Source of the DNA: a virus
Length of the DNA: 44,316 nucleotides
Virus record (IMG/VR): IMGVR_UViG_3300006621_000010
Span: 1 to 44,316 of that record
Reading direction: 5' to 3' (one strand)
Positions 3,290 to 27,061 of the stretch are shown here, in pieces (the first letter of the stretch is position 1; every line of letters starts with the position of its first letter). The notes below the pieces were generated by a model that saw only the letters and a list, made by a program, of their open reading frames with translations, ran no database searches and had not been told where the DNA came from. A program made the position numbers and the translations under genes.

Positions 3290-4107
3290 TATGTGCCTCC
3301 ATTGTAAGTGATTGAGTTAAAATCAGAATTAAGTTCTGACAGGATTATTGTACTTTGCGCGTTTTCATATGCGGCAGTAACAGTTCCGTTAGCTGTCCAA
3401 TTGCCATTATAGCAAGCTATTCTAAAGGAAATCGGGTTGAGTGTTGAAAAGGCTTGGAGCAAGGTACAAGATGAGTGGCCAGGTGTTGATGAATAGTCAA
3501 CCTCATACGCGCCGAATTGCCCGTGTCGATTTGCGCCGTATATTGACATACGCAAATTCAACCATGTTGTTCCACCATCTGTTGAGTATTGAACTCGATA
3601 ACTAGCGTTATGACTATTAGGCTCACCAAATAATTCAATCTCGCACTTTATGACGCTAGTAAATTTACGAGGGGTTATTGTGACACCGGTTGCACTCTGT
3701 CCAAAGTAGTAGAAACTTCCAGAAGTGACGACAGCGCGGACATAGTCTGTGTATGCACGTTGTTGAATTACCGGCGCAACAAGGTCTGGTGTTTGCCAAG
3801 CTGGTACATTAAGTCCACCTTGTGTAAGAACTTGGCCTTGTGCGCCAGCCCCTACATTCTGAAATGCAGAGCCATCATAATAAAAGATATCACCAGCGTT
3901 TGCTGCCACAGAGCCTAAGTCTGAGCCTAACGCCATCACTTGCCAAAACGGATTAGCGGATGTTACGGGTGTAACTCCGGTCACACTGTTGATACAAACG
4001 AATGAAGTGCCTGATTGAGATACAACATCATCTTTTTCGTAAGTGGTTGTATTATCGTAAGGGCCACGCCATGAGAATTTGATTTTTCCTAGATCGACTT
4101 CAAACAT
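3289..4107 (-). CDS. Tail fibre / receptor-binding-like protein 1
   Basis: The protein has 272 residues with the same N-terminal module as the next two genes (VDLGKIKFSWRGPYD, EKDDVVSQSGTSF), a short linker with fibre-like repeats (GDIFYYDGSAF, GAQGQVLTQGG) and a distinct C-terminal domain with beta-rich character. GAGG lies upstream of the ATG. It sits two bases after the T7-type fibre adaptor gene and overlaps the next fibre gene by one base, so the four proteins are probably made together. The specific receptor is not visible from sequence. Confidence 0.72.
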   Translation of the reverse strand: MFEVDLGKIKFSWRGPYDNTTTYEKDDVVSQSGTSFVCINSVTGVTPVTSANPFWQVMALGSDLGSVAANAGDIFYYDGSAFQNVGAGAQGQVLTQGGLNVPAWQTPDLVAPVIQQRAYTDYVRAVVTSGSFYYFGQSATGVTITPRKFTSVIKCEIELFGEPNSHNASYRVQYSTDGGTTWLNLRMSIYGANRHGQFGAYEVDYSSTPGHSSCTLLQAFSTLNPISFRIACYNGNWTANGTVTAAYENAQSTIILSELNSDFNSITYNGGT

Positions 4108-21723: not shown

Positions 21724-23429
21724 TAAGCACACTCCTTTTGTCCTGTATTGGGATCTATGAAACAGGCTTCAGCCTTTGGGGTATTGTCCTGTTTGTCTTC
21801 TTTAACTTCATTCAAAATTCCGTATCTTTTTCCAGCGGCACGAAACGTGGTTATTCCAGAACAGCCTAACTCGTAGGCATTCTCATACAGAGTCTTGAAG
21901 TCTTCATAGGTAACATCATCACCGACATTGCATGTCTTACTGACTGCGCTGTCCACAAGGCGCGAAGCCAACGCCAGTACACGGACATGGTCTTGCGCTG
22001 GGATCTCATTGGCTGTCTTACCAGACACACCTTGATTATATGCATAGTCCTCAACACGCTCGATGGTCTGTCCATCAAAGTTCTGGATGGTTCTGTCGTA
22101 GTACAATGCGAAGGGTGGCTCGATGCCGGACGATACGTTGTCGGCGGTCAGTGAGATTGTACCAGTGGGCGCGATGCTCAGTAGATGTGAGTTACGCAAT
22201 CCTTGCTGTATAATCTTTTCCTGAACCCACGGCGACAGCGTCTTATAGAATTCTCCCTGAGTGTATAGTTCTTCCTCATACAGCGGGAAGCTACCTTTCT
22301 CAGTTGCTAGATCAGCGGACGTTGCATAGCAATGGTCACGCAGAACAGACAATACCTTCTCCATCCATTCCATAAACTTCTGTGAAGCGAAAGGCATACC
22401 CATCAATTCACCAGCGTTGGCCAGGCCAGTTACACCCAGACCCATACGGCGTTTGTTCTTGGCTTCTTTCTCTTGCGCTGGGAGCGGATAGATTGTCCTG
22501 TCGATCACATTGTCCATTGCCCGCACGACATTCGCGATGTCACCGGTGAACAAACCGAAGTCAAACTGCTTGTCCAGAACGTACTTTACTAGGTTGAATG
22601 ACCCCAGCAAACACGCGCCATTATGAGGGAGAGGTTGCTCTCCGCACGGATTTGTGGCCGAGATAGTTTCGCAGTACCACAGATTGTTTTTCTTGTTGAT
22701 GGTGTCAACAAACAGTACCCCTGGCTCCGCCCAATCCCATGTGCTTTTCATGATGATATCCCATAGGGCAACCGGATCTACTTCTTTGTAGACTTTACCC
22801 TCGAACTCCAGCGGGAAGGGCTTCTTCTCGCGTAGATGCTCCATGAATTTATCAGTCACAAGGATAGATATATTGAAGCCCGTCAGCTTGTCGCTGTTGT
22901 GCTTGGCGTAAATGAATTCCTCGATTGAGGGGTGGTCTATTCTCATGCAACCCATCTGTGCGCCACGTCTGTGGCCGCTCGATGCGATGGTCTGACACAC
23001 GCTGTCAAAGATACCCATGAAACTGATAGGCCCTGATGACTTGGACTCCAGACTCTTGATGAGATCCCCGCGTGGTCGGATCTTGCTGAAGTCATAGCCG
23101 ATACCACCACCGCGTCTCATAGTCTCCGCCGCTTCCGTAGCGACAGCCATGATGCTTTCCATCGAGTCATTGATTTCACTACTGACAAAACAGTTGTACG
23201 CTGTAGTCATACGAGCCGCACCGACAGCATTCTGTACCCGACCGGCGGGTAGAAATCTCATGAGACGTAATGCGTCTTTAAAATTTTCAAAATGATTTGC
23301 ATCGTCTTTAAGTGCATTAGCAATACGGACAACTTTAGAATAAAAGTCCTCGCCCTGTTGCCTGTATTTGATTGTGTCTATCTCTTCTGAAAGCGGGAGA
23401 GATGGCCCGTAGTGTTGGTTGCTTATCAT
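21723..23429 (-). CDS. nrdJ: Class II (adenosylcobalamin-dependent) ribonucleotide reductase
   Basis: The 568-residue enzyme makes deoxynucleotides from ribonucleotides for phage DNA. Visible motifs include GIGYDFS (109-115), the first active cysteine region TTAYNCFVS (Cys80), ATNPCGEQPL with Cys262 for the thiyl radical, and GSFNL. A C-terminal cysteine pair (Cys556, Cys567) could serve thioredoxin-linked reduction. Its single-gene, oxygen-independent form implies that the host provides vitamin B12 coenzyme. Its start overlaps the MazG stop as ATGA. The family is common in marine T7-like podoviruses. Confidence 0.95.
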   Translation of the reverse strand: MISNQHYGPSLPLSEEIDTIKYRQQGEDFYSKVVRIANALKDDANHFENFKDALRLMRFLPAGRVQNAVGAARMTTAYNCFVSSEINDSMESIMAVATEAAETMRRGGGIGYDFSKIRPRGDLIKSLESKSSGPISFMGIFDSVCQTIASSGHRRGAQMGCMRIDHPSIEEFIYAKHNSDKLTGFNISILVTDKFMEHLREKKPFPLEFEGKVYKEVDPVALWDIIMKSTWDWAEPGVLFVDTINKKNNLWYCETISATNPCGEQPLPHNGACLLGSFNLVKYVLDKQFDFGLFTGDIANVVRAMDNVIDRTIYPLPAQEKEAKNKRRMGLGVTGLANAGELMGMPFASQKFMEWMEKVLSVLRDHCYATSADLATEKGSFPLYEEELYTQGEFYKTLSPWVQEKIIQQGLRNSHLLSIAPTGTISLTADNVSSGIEPPFALYYDRTIQNFDGQTIERVEDYAYNQGVSGKTANEIPAQDHVRVLALASRLVDSAVSKTCNVGDDVTYEDFKTLYENAYELGCSGITTFRAAGKRYGILNEVKEDKQDNTPKAEACFIDPNTGQKECA

Positions 23430-23830
23430 ACTAAATCCCTTAGATCTGGTTTTTTATAATTGGGGCCTTTCATTACCTTGCCGTCTTCGCGCATGACCGG
23501 CTTACCGTCATTGCCTAACTTCGACATATTGCTTTGATGCACTCGATTGAAAGCTGGGCGCAGCGGAAGGCCAAAGACCACTGCGAACCCAGATAGAACG
23601 TACTGAAGGTCAGCAAGTTCTTTGAGAAGGTTCTCTAGATTGTCGGGTGGCTTACTATGTGATAGTCGCCACGCCGCGCTGTGTACCTCTTGAGAGAACT
23701 CCGTGAACTCCTCACGGATTAGATCCAGCCGAAGCATCAGTTCATCGACTGTCATCTTCGTATTGACAGGTGACCCCATCGCCTCATTGAATCGGGTCAC
23801 CAGCATTTCACACGTCACATCACGCATCAT
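23426..23830 (-). CDS. MazG-like nucleotide pyrophosphohydrolase
   Basis: The protein has 134 residues. EEFTEF and KELADLQYVLSG form the EExxE...ExxD metal-binding pattern of the MazG / all-alpha NTP pyrophosphohydrolase fold, and NMSKLGNDGKPVMREDGKVM is the conserved C-terminal part of phage members. It may clear unusual nucleotides or lower ppGpp in the infected cell. The exact substrate cannot be told. The start overlaps the DUF3310 gene by four bases (ATGA). Confidence 0.88.
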   Translation of the reverse strand: MMRDVTCEMLVTRFNEAMGSPVNTKMTVDELMLRLDLIREEFTEFSQEVHSAAWRLSHSKPPDNLENLLKELADLQYVLSGFAVVFGLPLRPAFNRVHQSNMSKLGNDGKPVMREDGKVMKGPNYKKPDLRDLV

Positions 23831-24845
23831 TCTTCTTCCTTCTCTTTGATGATTTCTTTGAGGAACTCGCAGTACTCGATGGCTTTGTTGATGTCTCGCT
23901 TGACGTTGTCTTTGTGCTTTGTTCTGTATCGGCTGATGTATTTGAGGACGTTACTGACTGCCCATGCTTCTTCTCCATCAAGGGTTCGACAGACGGCTTT
24001 GATGTACTCTTTGGTTTCGATGTTGGCACGGACTCTTGTTCCGTCTTCGAGGGTAACCCATCCGGTGAATTGGTAGTGGCTGGGGCTGATAGCTTCATCC
24101 ATATATCTGGTTTCATGGGTGACCATAGTCTTACTTCTCCTGTTTGTTCTTTGTAGTCGCCATGTCTAAGGATGCGGGCAAGCCGTACCATTAGCAGGGC
24201 ATCTGCTTCTGTGAGTCCGTTGTTGATGAATGCGTCACGCGTGACATCCCATGCTAACTTTGGGTGTGGTGCATCTGCTAATATCTTCTCTGCTTTTACT
24301 GTACCTATACCCGGAATGCCTTTGTAGTTATCCGAAGAGTCACCGGTCATGGCTTGCTTGAATACTGCAAGGTCAGCCACATTAGGATTGATACGCATAG
24401 CACGGCGCATCTTGTCAGGATTAAAGACCTTACAAGGTAGCGTCATGATGTCCTTATCAATGCTGACAACAATCGGATTATCGATGTCAGGTTGTGTACC
24501 TAATATCCCCAACAGGTCATCAGCTTCGAGTCCGGCTTTCTGAACTACGCGGTATTTTTCAGACAAATAATTATAAGTAAAAGTAAGTGCAGAAGGTCGT
24601 TCCATTCCACCACGATTTGCTTTGTACTCAGGGAATATATCGTGACGATAATACTTGCGACTTGGATCTGAAAAACACATCAGCGTTACGTTAGGCTTCA
24701 GGTGTTTAGTCCACTCGTTCATCATGTAATCGACATACTCTTTTGCCCGCGCTGGGTCGAACTCCATGAGCGTGTCTTCTTTAACTGAGACAGCCGCTGC
24801 GCTCTTAAACGCAACGATGTCTCCATCGATTATTGCTGTTGTCAT
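23820..24845 (-). CDS. 5'-3' exonuclease (T7 gp6-like) with overprinted C-terminal tail
   Basis: Residues 1-242 are a FLAP/T7 gp6-type 5' nuclease: AIIDGDIVAFKS at the start, YKANRGGMERPS, GLEADDLLG, VVSIDKDIMTL and GDSSDNYKGIPGIGTVKAEK, carrying the acidic metal-binding residues and helix-hairpin-helix. Such enzymes remove RNA primers and degrade host DNA. After GEVRLWSP, where I would expect the protein to end, the frame stays open for about 99 more residues rich in Ser, Thr, Lys and Pro, and stops seven bases after the DUF3310 stop. This tail overlaps the DUF3310 gene fully. Start coupled to the upstream gene by ATGA. Confidence 0.9.
   Translation of the reverse strand: MTTAIIDGDIVAFKSAAAVSVKEDTLMEFDPARAKEYVDYMMNEWTKHLKPNVTLMCFSDPSRKYYRHDIFPEYKANRGGMERPSALTFTYNYLSEKYRVVQKAGLEADDLLGILGTQPDIDNPIVVSIDKDIMTLPCKVFNPDKMRRAMRINPNVADLAVFKQAMTGDSSDNYKGIPGIGTVKAEKILADAPHPKLAWDVTRDAFINNGLTEADALLMVRLARILRHGDYKEQTGEVRLWSPMKPDIWMKLSAPATTNSPDGLPSKTEQESVPTSKPKSTSKPSVEPLMEKKHGQSVTSSNTSADTEQSTKTTSSETSTKPSSTASSSKKSSKRRKKNDA
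23827..24126 (-). CDS. DUF3310 protein (T7 gp1.7-like nucleotide kinase family)
   Basis: The 99-residue protein has the DUF3310 signature: SPSHYQ near the start, then an Asn-Val-x-Lys-Tyr-Ile-x-Arg-Tyr motif (NVLKYISRYRTKHKDNVKRD) and INKAIEYCEFLKEII. T7 gp1.7, which belongs to this family, is a nucleoside monophosphate kinase. Activity here is inferred. The whole gene lies inside the C-terminal reading frame of the exonuclease, in a different frame. A GGAG lies upstream in the exonuclease coding sequence. Confidence 0.85.
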   Translation of the reverse strand: MVTHETRYMDEAISPSHYQFTGWVTLEDGTRVRANIETKEYIKAVCRTLDGEEAWAVSNVLKYISRYRTKHKDNVKRDINKAIEYCEFLKEIIKEKEEE

Positions 24846-25051
24846 GTCTGAATTCCAATCCTCTCACATTTCCAATACAAATCTGTCGGTGGCATTAACG
24901 CCAGTGATGTATGTGCCATATGCTTGGCACGGGCTTCACACTGCGCTTTGGTAGACCAAGGCCCCCACTCATCTTCCGCATGGATACACTGGTCACCACC
25001 TATCGGCGTACCGGCGGCACATAAGATCATGATAACTTTCCAAGTTCCCAT
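24842..25051 (-). CDS. Small cysteine-containing hypothetical protein
   Basis: The protein has 69 residues from the ATG at 25051, which overlaps the DNA polymerase stop as TGATG. The N-terminus is hydrophobic (WKVIMILCAAGTPIG) and may be a short signal or membrane-associated segment. Cys residues occur in GGDQCIHAEDEW, KAQCEARAK and YWKCERIG. The family is not recognised, and the start overlaps the exonuclease gene as ATGA. Confidence 0.7.
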   Translation of the reverse strand: MGTWKVIMILCAAGTPIGGDQCIHAEDEWGPWSTKAQCEARAKHMAHTSLALMPPTDLYWKCERIGIQT

Positions 25052-26781
25052 CAGTGTGTTTCCTTCCAGTTCGCACCGATGTCGTATGAACCAGACACCG
25101 GACATTTGAGTTTTAGTTGCTCCCCCGCAACCGCAATCGCGGCGGCGAATAGCTGACCTATTTCTTTTGCTTGTCCGTCACGCACAGACATCTGCACTTC
25201 GTCATGCACATTGGCGCAGTAATGAAAGGAGACAGGCTTATCGTGTTTGACGTGACCAGCTTTAGCCGCGATGTCATAATGGAATGCTACTAAGGCTTTC
25301 TTCATTACGATTGCACCGGCTGACTGTAAGCAGAAGTTCAACGCTGAGTGTGGTGACAGGATAGGAACTTTACGACCATCGATGCCCAGCAAGTATCCTC
25401 GCTCACAACGCTTGTCGATAATATCAGTCAGCTTCTCTAAGCCGGTGATACCTTTCTTCATACGCTGGCGTACTTCCTTGCCCTTCATATAGATGCCAAC
25501 GTCCTTCATAATGGACTGCAACTTGCGGTCACTTGCGCCGTATAAAAATGCGTAAGTGACCCGTTTTACGGTATCCCGGCATTTGACTCCTAGTGCCTTA
25601 CCGGTGCGTGAGTGTACGTCAGTACCATCGTCCTTCGATCCTTTGAGCAATGCATCAGCATACGCCCCGTTGTCGAAGTGACCCAGATAGTGGGCAAGCA
25701 TTCTGAGTTCGAGCGCGTCTGCGTCTACCCCCACCAGCTTGTCACCTTCGTCCGGCAACCAGACTTCACGCATCCTAAGATCACGCTTACTGATTTGCCC
25801 CATGTTAGGCCCCCAATGACTACAGCGTGACGTTGCTGTTCCAATGGTGTTGACCTTGCCATGCACATAGCCATCGCCGGTCACACACTTGAGCCATCCT
25901 GATTCACCCTCGCTGATTTGCGACAGTTGCTTCTGACAGAACAGATAGTTATTCAGTAGCTGGGCTTCGGGGTACTTTAGATAAGACAGTACAGTCTCAT
26001 CGATCTTCGGTGAGCCTGACGGTGAGAATGCTTTAGGCTTCCACCCGTACTTCTCTGTCAGACGTGATGCTATCTGTTGACGGGAACCAGGGTTGAACAC
26101 CTCGACATTATCCTTCAACCGCTTACCGGTCTTCTCTGACCAACGCTCATGCGTTATCGGTGGGAATGCCTCTTGGAGTTCAACCTCGATGTCCGACATC
26201 TTCTGACGTAGTTCGGCGCATAGTTCTTCAGCCATCTTTACGTTGAGCCTGAAGCCATGCTGTTCTTGTAAGTTCAATACATAAGCAAAGTCATGCTCAA
26301 GCTGGATAGACTCAGCCCACGTTGGATCTGATAGTTCGACCATCAGTTGCTCATAGACCTTGGCTGTCACCTCAACATCACGGGCGCAGTACTCAGCCAT
26401 CTCATCGCTGAACTTTTCCCAATCACTGAAGTCACCCTTCGGGTAACCAAGTTGCTCACCCCAGAATTCAAGTGAGTGTTTACGCTGGGTTGGTTTGGCA
26501 AGCCTAGACAATATAAGTGTATCTATAACTTTGGTTCGCTGTATTTGTAGGTCAGGAAAAATCCGCATCAGTGTTGGGTAATCGTATCCCAGACCGTTGT
26601 GCCAGACTGTCTTGTCCGCTGTCTCCAGCCTCGCTAGTCCGTCCTTTAGTGGTGGATAGTTCGGGTGATCTGCATACACTATCGTATCGGTCGGTGCATG
26701 GTAGTTCGCTATCGCTAAACAGTGAACCTTGGTCGCTATCAGACCGTCTGTCTCTATGTCTGCTATCAGTATTGTTTCCAA
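25051..26781 (-). CDS. DNA polymerase A family, T7 gp5-like, TTG start
   Basis: The 576-residue replicative polymerase carries 3'-5' exonuclease motifs (IADIETDGL at residues 6-14, KTVWHNGLGYDYPTL) and polymerase motifs A (VGVDADALELRMLAHYL), B (RDTVKRVTYAFLYGASD) and C (ANVHDEVQMSV). It is shorter than T7 gp5 (704) and probably uses a different processivity arrangement. The frame opens with TTG at 26781, preceded at nine bases by GAGG. No ATG lies before the essential exonuclease motif, so TTG is the likely start. The first 230 bases overlap the HNH reading frame. Confidence 0.95.
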   Translation of the reverse strand: METILIADIETDGLIATKVHCLAIANYHAPTDTIVYADHPNYPPLKDGLARLETADKTVWHNGLGYDYPTLMRIFPDLQIQRTKVIDTLILSRLAKPTQRKHSLEFWGEQLGYPKGDFSDWEKFSDEMAEYCARDVEVTAKVYEQLMVELSDPTWAESIQLEHDFAYVLNLQEQHGFRLNVKMAEELCAELRQKMSDIEVELQEAFPPITHERWSEKTGKRLKDNVEVFNPGSRQQIASRLTEKYGWKPKAFSPSGSPKIDETVLSYLKYPEAQLLNNYLFCQKQLSQISEGESGWLKCVTGDGYVHGKVNTIGTATSRCSHWGPNMGQISKRDLRMREVWLPDEGDKLVGVDADALELRMLAHYLGHFDNGAYADALLKGSKDDGTDVHSRTGKALGVKCRDTVKRVTYAFLYGASDRKLQSIMKDVGIYMKGKEVRQRMKKGITGLEKLTDIIDKRCERGYLLGIDGRKVPILSPHSALNFCLQSAGAIVMKKALVAFHYDIAAKAGHVKHDKPVSFHYCANVHDEVQMSVRDGQAKEIGQLFAAAIAVAGEQLKLKCPVSGSYDIGANWKETH

Positions 26782-27061
26782 AATATTTTACCTCGTTGTT
26801 TGCGTGTACCTGTCGATGACAGTTGGCACAAAGGAGCGCACACTTGTCCGCTTCTTCTACCAGCCGTTGCCAAGTGGTGGCACTCATCTGCGAAATTTGC
26901 AGAGTGAATTCCTTTTCGGCTGGATTCATGTGGTGGAAGTCATACACTTCCGGCGGGTATGATTGCTCACACCTAGCGCATTGATTACCGTGTCTTTCTA
27001 TGAGGGCTTTACGTCTTTCATTTCGTAGCTTGCGTTGGTAAATAACTTTTTTAGAAGCTAT
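26552..27061 (-). CDS. HNH homing-type endonuclease lacking a standard start codon
   Basis: The reading frame after the helicase stop encodes KKVIYQRKLRNERRKALIER, then HGNQCARCEQSY, YDFHHMNPAEKEF and ADKCALLCANCHRQVHANN, a complete HNH nuclease with two Cys pairs and the HH...N...H core. An in-frame TAG lies just upstream and no ATG, GTG or TTG occurs before the first Cys pair. The only candidates are ATA (27061) or ATT. A GTG at 26947 would remove part of the domain. The frame has no stop at the end of the domain and runs out of frame through the start of the polymerase gene. It may be translated by reinitiation after the helicase, or may be a decaying gene. Confidence 0.7.
   Translation of the reverse strand: MASKKVIYQRKLRNERRKALIERHGNQCARCEQSYPPEVYDFHHMNPAEKEFTLQISQMSATTWQRLVEEADKCALLCANCHRQVHANNEVKYFGNNTDSRHRDRRSDSDQGSLFSDSELPCTDRYDSVCRSPELSTTKGRTSEAGDSGQDSLAQRSGIRLPNTDADFS

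Follow-up and report, generated by a model that had tools for sequence, protein, structure and literature searches.

The polymerases of Nodaviridae and Bromoviridae possess disordered C-terminal extensions, which are overlapped by the silencing suppressors B2 and 2b (PMC3744397). Viral overlapping genes are enriched in C, Ser, and Pro, depleted in Tyr, Ile, and TA, and disorder-promoting (survey PMC6195259; review PMC8227390); the survey, in which phages were omitted, also reported an enrichment of Arg (PMC6195259). The embedded spanin genes Rz/Rz1 of phage lambda are an example of a phage gene located wholly inside another gene, in a different frame (PMC6139136). Among T7-like phages with a downstream gene that starts in the last codons of the exonuclease, Votkovvirus S28C10 has the two genes examined in our study in the same order, DUF3310 starting inside the exonuclease end. 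The overlap in Votkovvirus S28C10 is 47 bases long and the exonuclease stops soon past the nuclease, whereas in the window the entire DUF3310 gene is covered by the exonuclease reading frame.

The window, the whole stretch of 44,316 nucleotides analysed here, is a 44-kb virus record (IMG/VR record IMGVR_UViG_3300006621_000010) with a T7-like gene content. It was found to contain genes for a single-subunit RNA polymerase, a primase/helicase, a family A polymerase, a terminase, and a head protein, as well as a ribonucleotide reductase gene. The exonuclease ORF is present on the minus strand at 23820–24845 and encodes 341 amino acids (stop codon 23820–23822). Residues 1–243 (24117–24845) form the conserved 5'-3' exonuclease (FEN-type) domain, followed by a tail of 98 codons (residues 244–341), which occupies 23820–24116 together with the stop codon. 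The DUF3310 gene (23827–24126, minus strand, 300 bases, 99 amino acids) lies wholly within the exonuclease ORF in another frame; its stop comes first and that of the exonuclease 7 bases further on. A MazG-like pyrophosphohydrolase gene (23426–23830, minus strand; Pfam PRA-PH 1.1e-10; PHROG nucleotide pyrophosphohydrolase) follows, and its start overlaps both of these stops. These ORF coordinates agree with the original prediction, made from the sequence of the window, that the exonuclease frame spans all 300 bases of DUF3310 and stops 7 bases beyond it. The nuclease homology was likewise seen to end at GEVRLWSP without a stop, at about residue 243.

Family support, which had been claimed for both proteins, was found for both. 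The exonuclease matched Pfam 5_3_exonuc_N (7e-13) and a PHROG exonuclease family (8e-52), and DUF3310 matched PF11753 (1.7e-7) with 31.6 bits against the curated Pfam cut-off of 24. The exonuclease relatives by sequence and fold included T5 D15, T4 RNase H, and ExoIX, with fold matches to the solved structures of T5 D15 and T4 RNase H. The acidic residues D7, D9, E107, D109, D110, D130, and D132 were invariant in the exonucleases of the clade described below. By domain match and conserved acidic residues, the protein is a T7 gp6/FEN-type 5'-3' exonuclease, the activity being predicted.

DUF3310 possesses its own putative ribosome-binding site, AGGAG (24137–24141, minus strand), within the GEV codons of the exonuclease, and a start codon ATG (24124–24126, minus strand) within CTATGG, which encodes the exonuclease Leu-Trp; both are thus embedded in the exonuclease codons for GEVRLW. 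A GGAG-like site precedes the start throughout the clade, and the start position is common to many short-tailed relatives. The conserved exonuclease end GEVxLW (24124–24141 in the window, minus strand) provides both the ribosome site and the ATG. Quite different downstream genes were found to start at GEVxLW in different phages (loci L045, L065, L108, L112, L121, and L130), and GEVxLW is, on these positions, a recurrent putative start site built into an enzyme motif.

A second overlap was observed nearby. A small ORF (26552–26947, minus strand), with an HNH-like C..C/CH pattern and no Pfam match, continues into the start of the DNA polymerase (ORF 25051–26781) in another frame. It extends 69 codons past a DIETDG motif in the window and its close relatives (probability of an open frame about 0.01), and 22–33 codons past it in most other clade members having the ORF.

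Relatives were collected by IMG/VR scans and a genome-contig scan, which together gave 147 distinct exonuclease loci; the genome-contig scan found remote nucleases only. In a megablast search, no phage record matched the region, so there is no close cultured relative among them; the records found by tblastn were all below 60% identity, and each of them covered less than 80% of the exonuclease. Tails of 50–112 residues were found in 32 of the 147 loci, including the window, with nuclease identity down to about 40%. The tail-bearing group consists of uncultured, mostly marine phages. In all 32 long-tailed loci the downstream gene begins at the same place, with TTG in L011 and ATG elsewhere. The tail frame was open in every clade member, and none had a tail shorter than about 50 codons.

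Outside the clade, more than 100 loci had an exonuclease that stopped 0–24 codons past the nuclease, directly behind LWxP, and the downstream gene, read in the shifted frame, held 1–13 stops. The exceptions were L055 (47 codons) and L069, a bacterial DNA-polymerase-like match. In a tree of the nuclease domain only, for which no root was inferred, the long-tailed rows of the clade were placed on a single branch (SH-aLRT 94) with zero short-tailed rows inside. The near outgroups L108, L112, L115, L116, and L118 contained a DUF3310-like gene at the identical ATG and their exonuclease stops at once. The early stops and the stop-filled shifted frame outside the clade indicate that the tail is a derived trait, confined to one clade and not general to the family; as the short state is widespread, stop loss in a single ancestor is the simple reading. 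The comparison of related phages proposed with the original prediction thus favoured a real extension, and a single-base sequencing error as the source of the open frame was excluded by the many independent contigs. The 47-codon tail of L055, which lies outside the clade and is a separate case in the tree, covers the N-terminal part of a DUF3310 gene and has raised A. It was considered as a second origin of the tail and set aside, as its probability of an open frame was 0.40 and there was no C shift; this extension is possibly a recent or neutral stop loss.

In the phase of this overlap, each tail codon consists of bases 2 and 3 of a DUF3310 codon followed by base 1 of the next. The third base of DUF3310, which is mostly free, is therefore the second base of the tail codon, and the overlap can be tested through the synonymous codons of DUF3310. 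The second base of the tail codon sets the residue class: C gives Ser/Thr/Pro/Ala, T gives hydrophobic residues, A gives polar or charged residues or a stop, and G gives Arg/Ser/Gly/Cys/Trp or a stop.

The best explanation overall, to which we assign a probability of about 0.88, is that a stop loss produced a disordered, net-basic tail by overprinting and that the tail is now kept by selection. In the ancestor, DUF3310 would have started in the last exonuclease codons, at the ATG in CTATGG of the conserved Leu-Trp, with the exonuclease stop a few codons further on. One clade would then have lost this stop, so that ribosomes read on through DUF3310 in the shifted frame, giving a tail of 50–112 residues. 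The first tail residues, around the conserved Trp, would have joined the nuclease fold and the remainder would have become an intrinsically disordered, hydrophilic, net-basic extension. DUF3310 would be translated independently by way of its own AGGAG site, and selection would constrain its synonymous codons so that the tail stays open and disordered. As far as sequence comparison can show it, the tail belongs to one clade, was lost in none of the sampled members, and is under selection against stops and order-promoting residues, with the bias present only in the overlap. Two ORFs open beyond chance, selection on both frames, and an older, widespread frame beside a clade-restricted one are the marks of overprinting found here. 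The selection is seen for DUF3310 in its conservation as a Pfam family and for the tail in the codon signature and the reduced synonymous change; DUF3310 is regarded as the older, widespread frame and the exonuclease tail as the newcomer.

The window tail contained 38 S/T, 10 P, and 17 K/R among its 98 codons, and the net charge was positive in 19 of the 19 tails checked (+1 to +14). The AlphaFold2 model, built from an input of 10 sequences and of modest confidence (mean pLDDT 61.6), contained the nuclease core and a strand at 248–251, followed by residues 252–341 without confident structure (pLDDT <50). These residues are predicted to be intrinsically disordered, from pLDDT and the disorder-promoting composition. 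Position-specific conserved columns were found mostly at the tail start (Pro and Trp), in keeping with the addition of a strand to the fold, followed by a composition-constrained tail. Beyond the first tail residues there was almost no position-specific conservation and no motif (distant-pair mean z 1.25), and a specific tail function is for this reason not evident. The tail may act as a flexible tether or solubility segment keeping the exonuclease near DNA or replication partners, a speculative role that falls a little short of even odds. In FEN-type enzymes, flexible basic tails can mediate binding to partners or to DNA, human FEN1 being the usual example, and a tether is the first guess for this reason.

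The residues of the tail were compared with those expected from the codons of DUF3310. Ser (2.1x), Thr (1.5x), Lys (1.7x), Glu (2.6x), Asp (2.7x), and Pro (2.1x) were favoured, whereas Tyr (0 observed, 13 expected), Cys (1/14), and Phe (4/25) were avoided and Leu/Ile/Val were at about 0.35–0.4x. The composition is partly mechanical, because an A at the second base of DUF3310 codons makes tail codons begin with A (Thr, Lys, Ser). Under the main alternative, the stop loss was accidental and the tail is functionless, with selection only preventing harm from hydrophobic residues. This alternative predicts the observed avoidance of hydrophobic residues, and the constraint past the first tail residues is indeed compositional and not position-specific. 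However, it leaves the avoidance of stops unexplained: tail-frame stops numbered 0 against 68.5 expected in the representatives, whereas 9–23 single-base changes synonymous in DUF3310 could end the tail in each clade sequence. The short-tailed relatives, moreover, do well without a tail, and no clade tail ends before about 50 codons. We therefore regard a functionless tail as unlikely.

Another explanation considers the peptide a by-product, the exonuclease ribosomes serving to tune the expression of DUF3310 or coupling to the MazG start. The stops of the exonuclease and DUF3310 and the start of MazG are found within 11 bases in the window, as such coupling would have it, but the position of the exonuclease stop varies between 47 bases upstream and 55 bases downstream of the DUF3310 stop. 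A role in ribosome traffic also does not predict a signature by tail residue class, such as the avoidance of Tyr and Cys, and it is accordingly a very improbable account.

The codon usage of DUF3310 was found to be altered in the overlap. Over the 18 representatives, the observed and expected third bases were 171 and 449 for T, 743 and 403 for C, 473 and 373 for A, and 136 and 298 for G. In the same DUF3310 genes past the exonuclease stop, they were 12 and 12.5 for T, 4 and 8.0 for C, and 26 and 19.2 for A (Fisher 4e-10). No comparable T or C shift was found in the nuclease part of the same exonuclease genes, and no third-base shift in the next gene. In short-tailed relatives, the genes beginning at the corresponding ATG also showed no shift (T 486/483, C 436/416, NTA codons 94/78). 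Among 52 minus-strand genes of the window, DUF3310 had the largest third-base deviation from genome codon usage (95 informative codons). The use of A depended on context. After a second base T (NTA codons) it was found 0 times against about 62 expected; such codons would place TAA, TAG, or Tyr in the tail frame, which explains their avoidance. After a second base A it was found 260 times against 174 expected, where the tail gains Lys or Asn, and it was raised after the second bases A, G, and C. Codon differences at conserved residues were 0.119 in the overlap and 0.258 in the nuclease, the overlap being lower in 19 of 19 pairs. The check on synonymous constraint suggested with the original prediction thus found codon change in the overlap at less than half that of the nuclease, which together with the open tail frame across the clade upholds a gene within a gene.

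Avoidance of mRNA structure, or high expression of DUF3310, could be proposed for the C shift without any translated tail, as the third bases move from G/T to C/A and pairing potential is lowered. Neither RNA structure nor DUF3310 expression predicts context dependence, and a third base that is absent after T and raised after A, G, and C points to the peptide. The shift also does not continue past the exonuclease stop, and short-tailed relatives lack it in the same gene; this reading was rejected on the context-dependent use of A and carries hardly any probability. The codon-choice signature is best explained by translation of the tail, and we infer that the tail protein is made in vivo.

A programmed -1 frameshift, by which the exonuclease would be fused to DUF3310 and the tail frame would not be a real product, is as improbable as the reading by mRNA structure. 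A -1 shift within the overlap would enter the DUF3310 frame, and XXXYYYZ heptamers are present in some members; however, the heptamer is missing from the exonuclease frame in the window and most representatives, and no common place was found. DUF3310 has its own ribosome site and start, and the stops and residues of the tail frame are under selection. The fusion was rejected for the lack of a common slippery site.

The open frame was compared with chance by shuffling synonymous codons while the DUF3310 protein and each contig's own codon usage were kept fixed. The window tail frame was this open in about 0.1% of the shuffles (0.0005 and 0.0013 in two runs). The probability per representative ranged from 0.0003 to 0.2, and the summed log10 probability over 18 representatives was -35, a value overstated by their relatedness, since the samples are non-independent. 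That the open frame is a mechanical outcome of the DUF3310 amino acids, as the partly mechanical composition and the highest single value (0.2, L166) might suggest, is the least probable reading of all, given these probabilities, the 0 of 13 DUF3310 genes elsewhere that are open in the tail frame, and the short-tailed relatives, whose downstream genes at this start all contain stops in that frame.

The preferred reading, a tail acquired by overprinting and kept by selection, was also examined over a different gene. L101 has a DUF6378 gene (3705–4022) in the place occupied by DUF3310 in clade relatives, and the exonuclease tail over it has 50 residues and is Lys/Arg/Ser-rich. Third base C was observed 22 times (14.6 expected) before the exonuclease stop and 12 times (18.9 expected) after it. 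L101 is thus an independent check of the codon signature, resting on one contig. The first codons of DUF6378 still give the tail a Trp-Met-Lys resembling the clade tails, as if only the remainder of the gene past these codons had been exchanged. Under a tentative and somewhat doubtful proposal, the tail would serve the exonuclease as a functional disordered module, perhaps tethering it to DNA, to single-strand binding protein, or to polymerase, and would be maintained over whatever gene underlies it. The underlying gene would then be exchangeable, the character of the tail being kept or rebuilt, and the overprinted segment would no longer be bound to one host gene.

The locus offers an unusually clean natural experiment in overprinting, in which synonymous codons give a direct record of the selection acting on a disordered tail. 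As internal controls there are this gene beyond the exonuclease stop, its counterpart in short-tailed relatives, and the different gene beneath the tail of L101. The case would show an enzyme gaining a disordered extension through stop loss in a compact genome. Such tails can be missed when annotation shortens or discards one member of a fully overlapping gene pair.

No description of the exonuclease/DUF3310 overlap was found in the open-access papers searched; overprinted disordered extensions and embedded phage genes are already known, and it is this instance that appears to be undescribed. The composition of the clade tails is like that of viral overlaps except for the basic residues. In the 18 representative tails, Arg was at 0.35x and Lys at 1.7x of the expectation from DUF3310 codons, which is opposite to the Arg enrichment in PMC6195259. 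The spanin partners act together at lysis, whereas in the window a replication nuclease is paired with a small protein unrelated to it, and another gene can lie underneath, as in L101. As in Nodaviridae and Bromoviridae, a replication enzyme has a disordered C-terminal extension whose bases also encode an unrelated gene in another frame. Those are RNA viruses in which the suppressor is, by codon usage and with some doubt, the younger frame, whereas in the window the tail of the enzyme would be the younger one.
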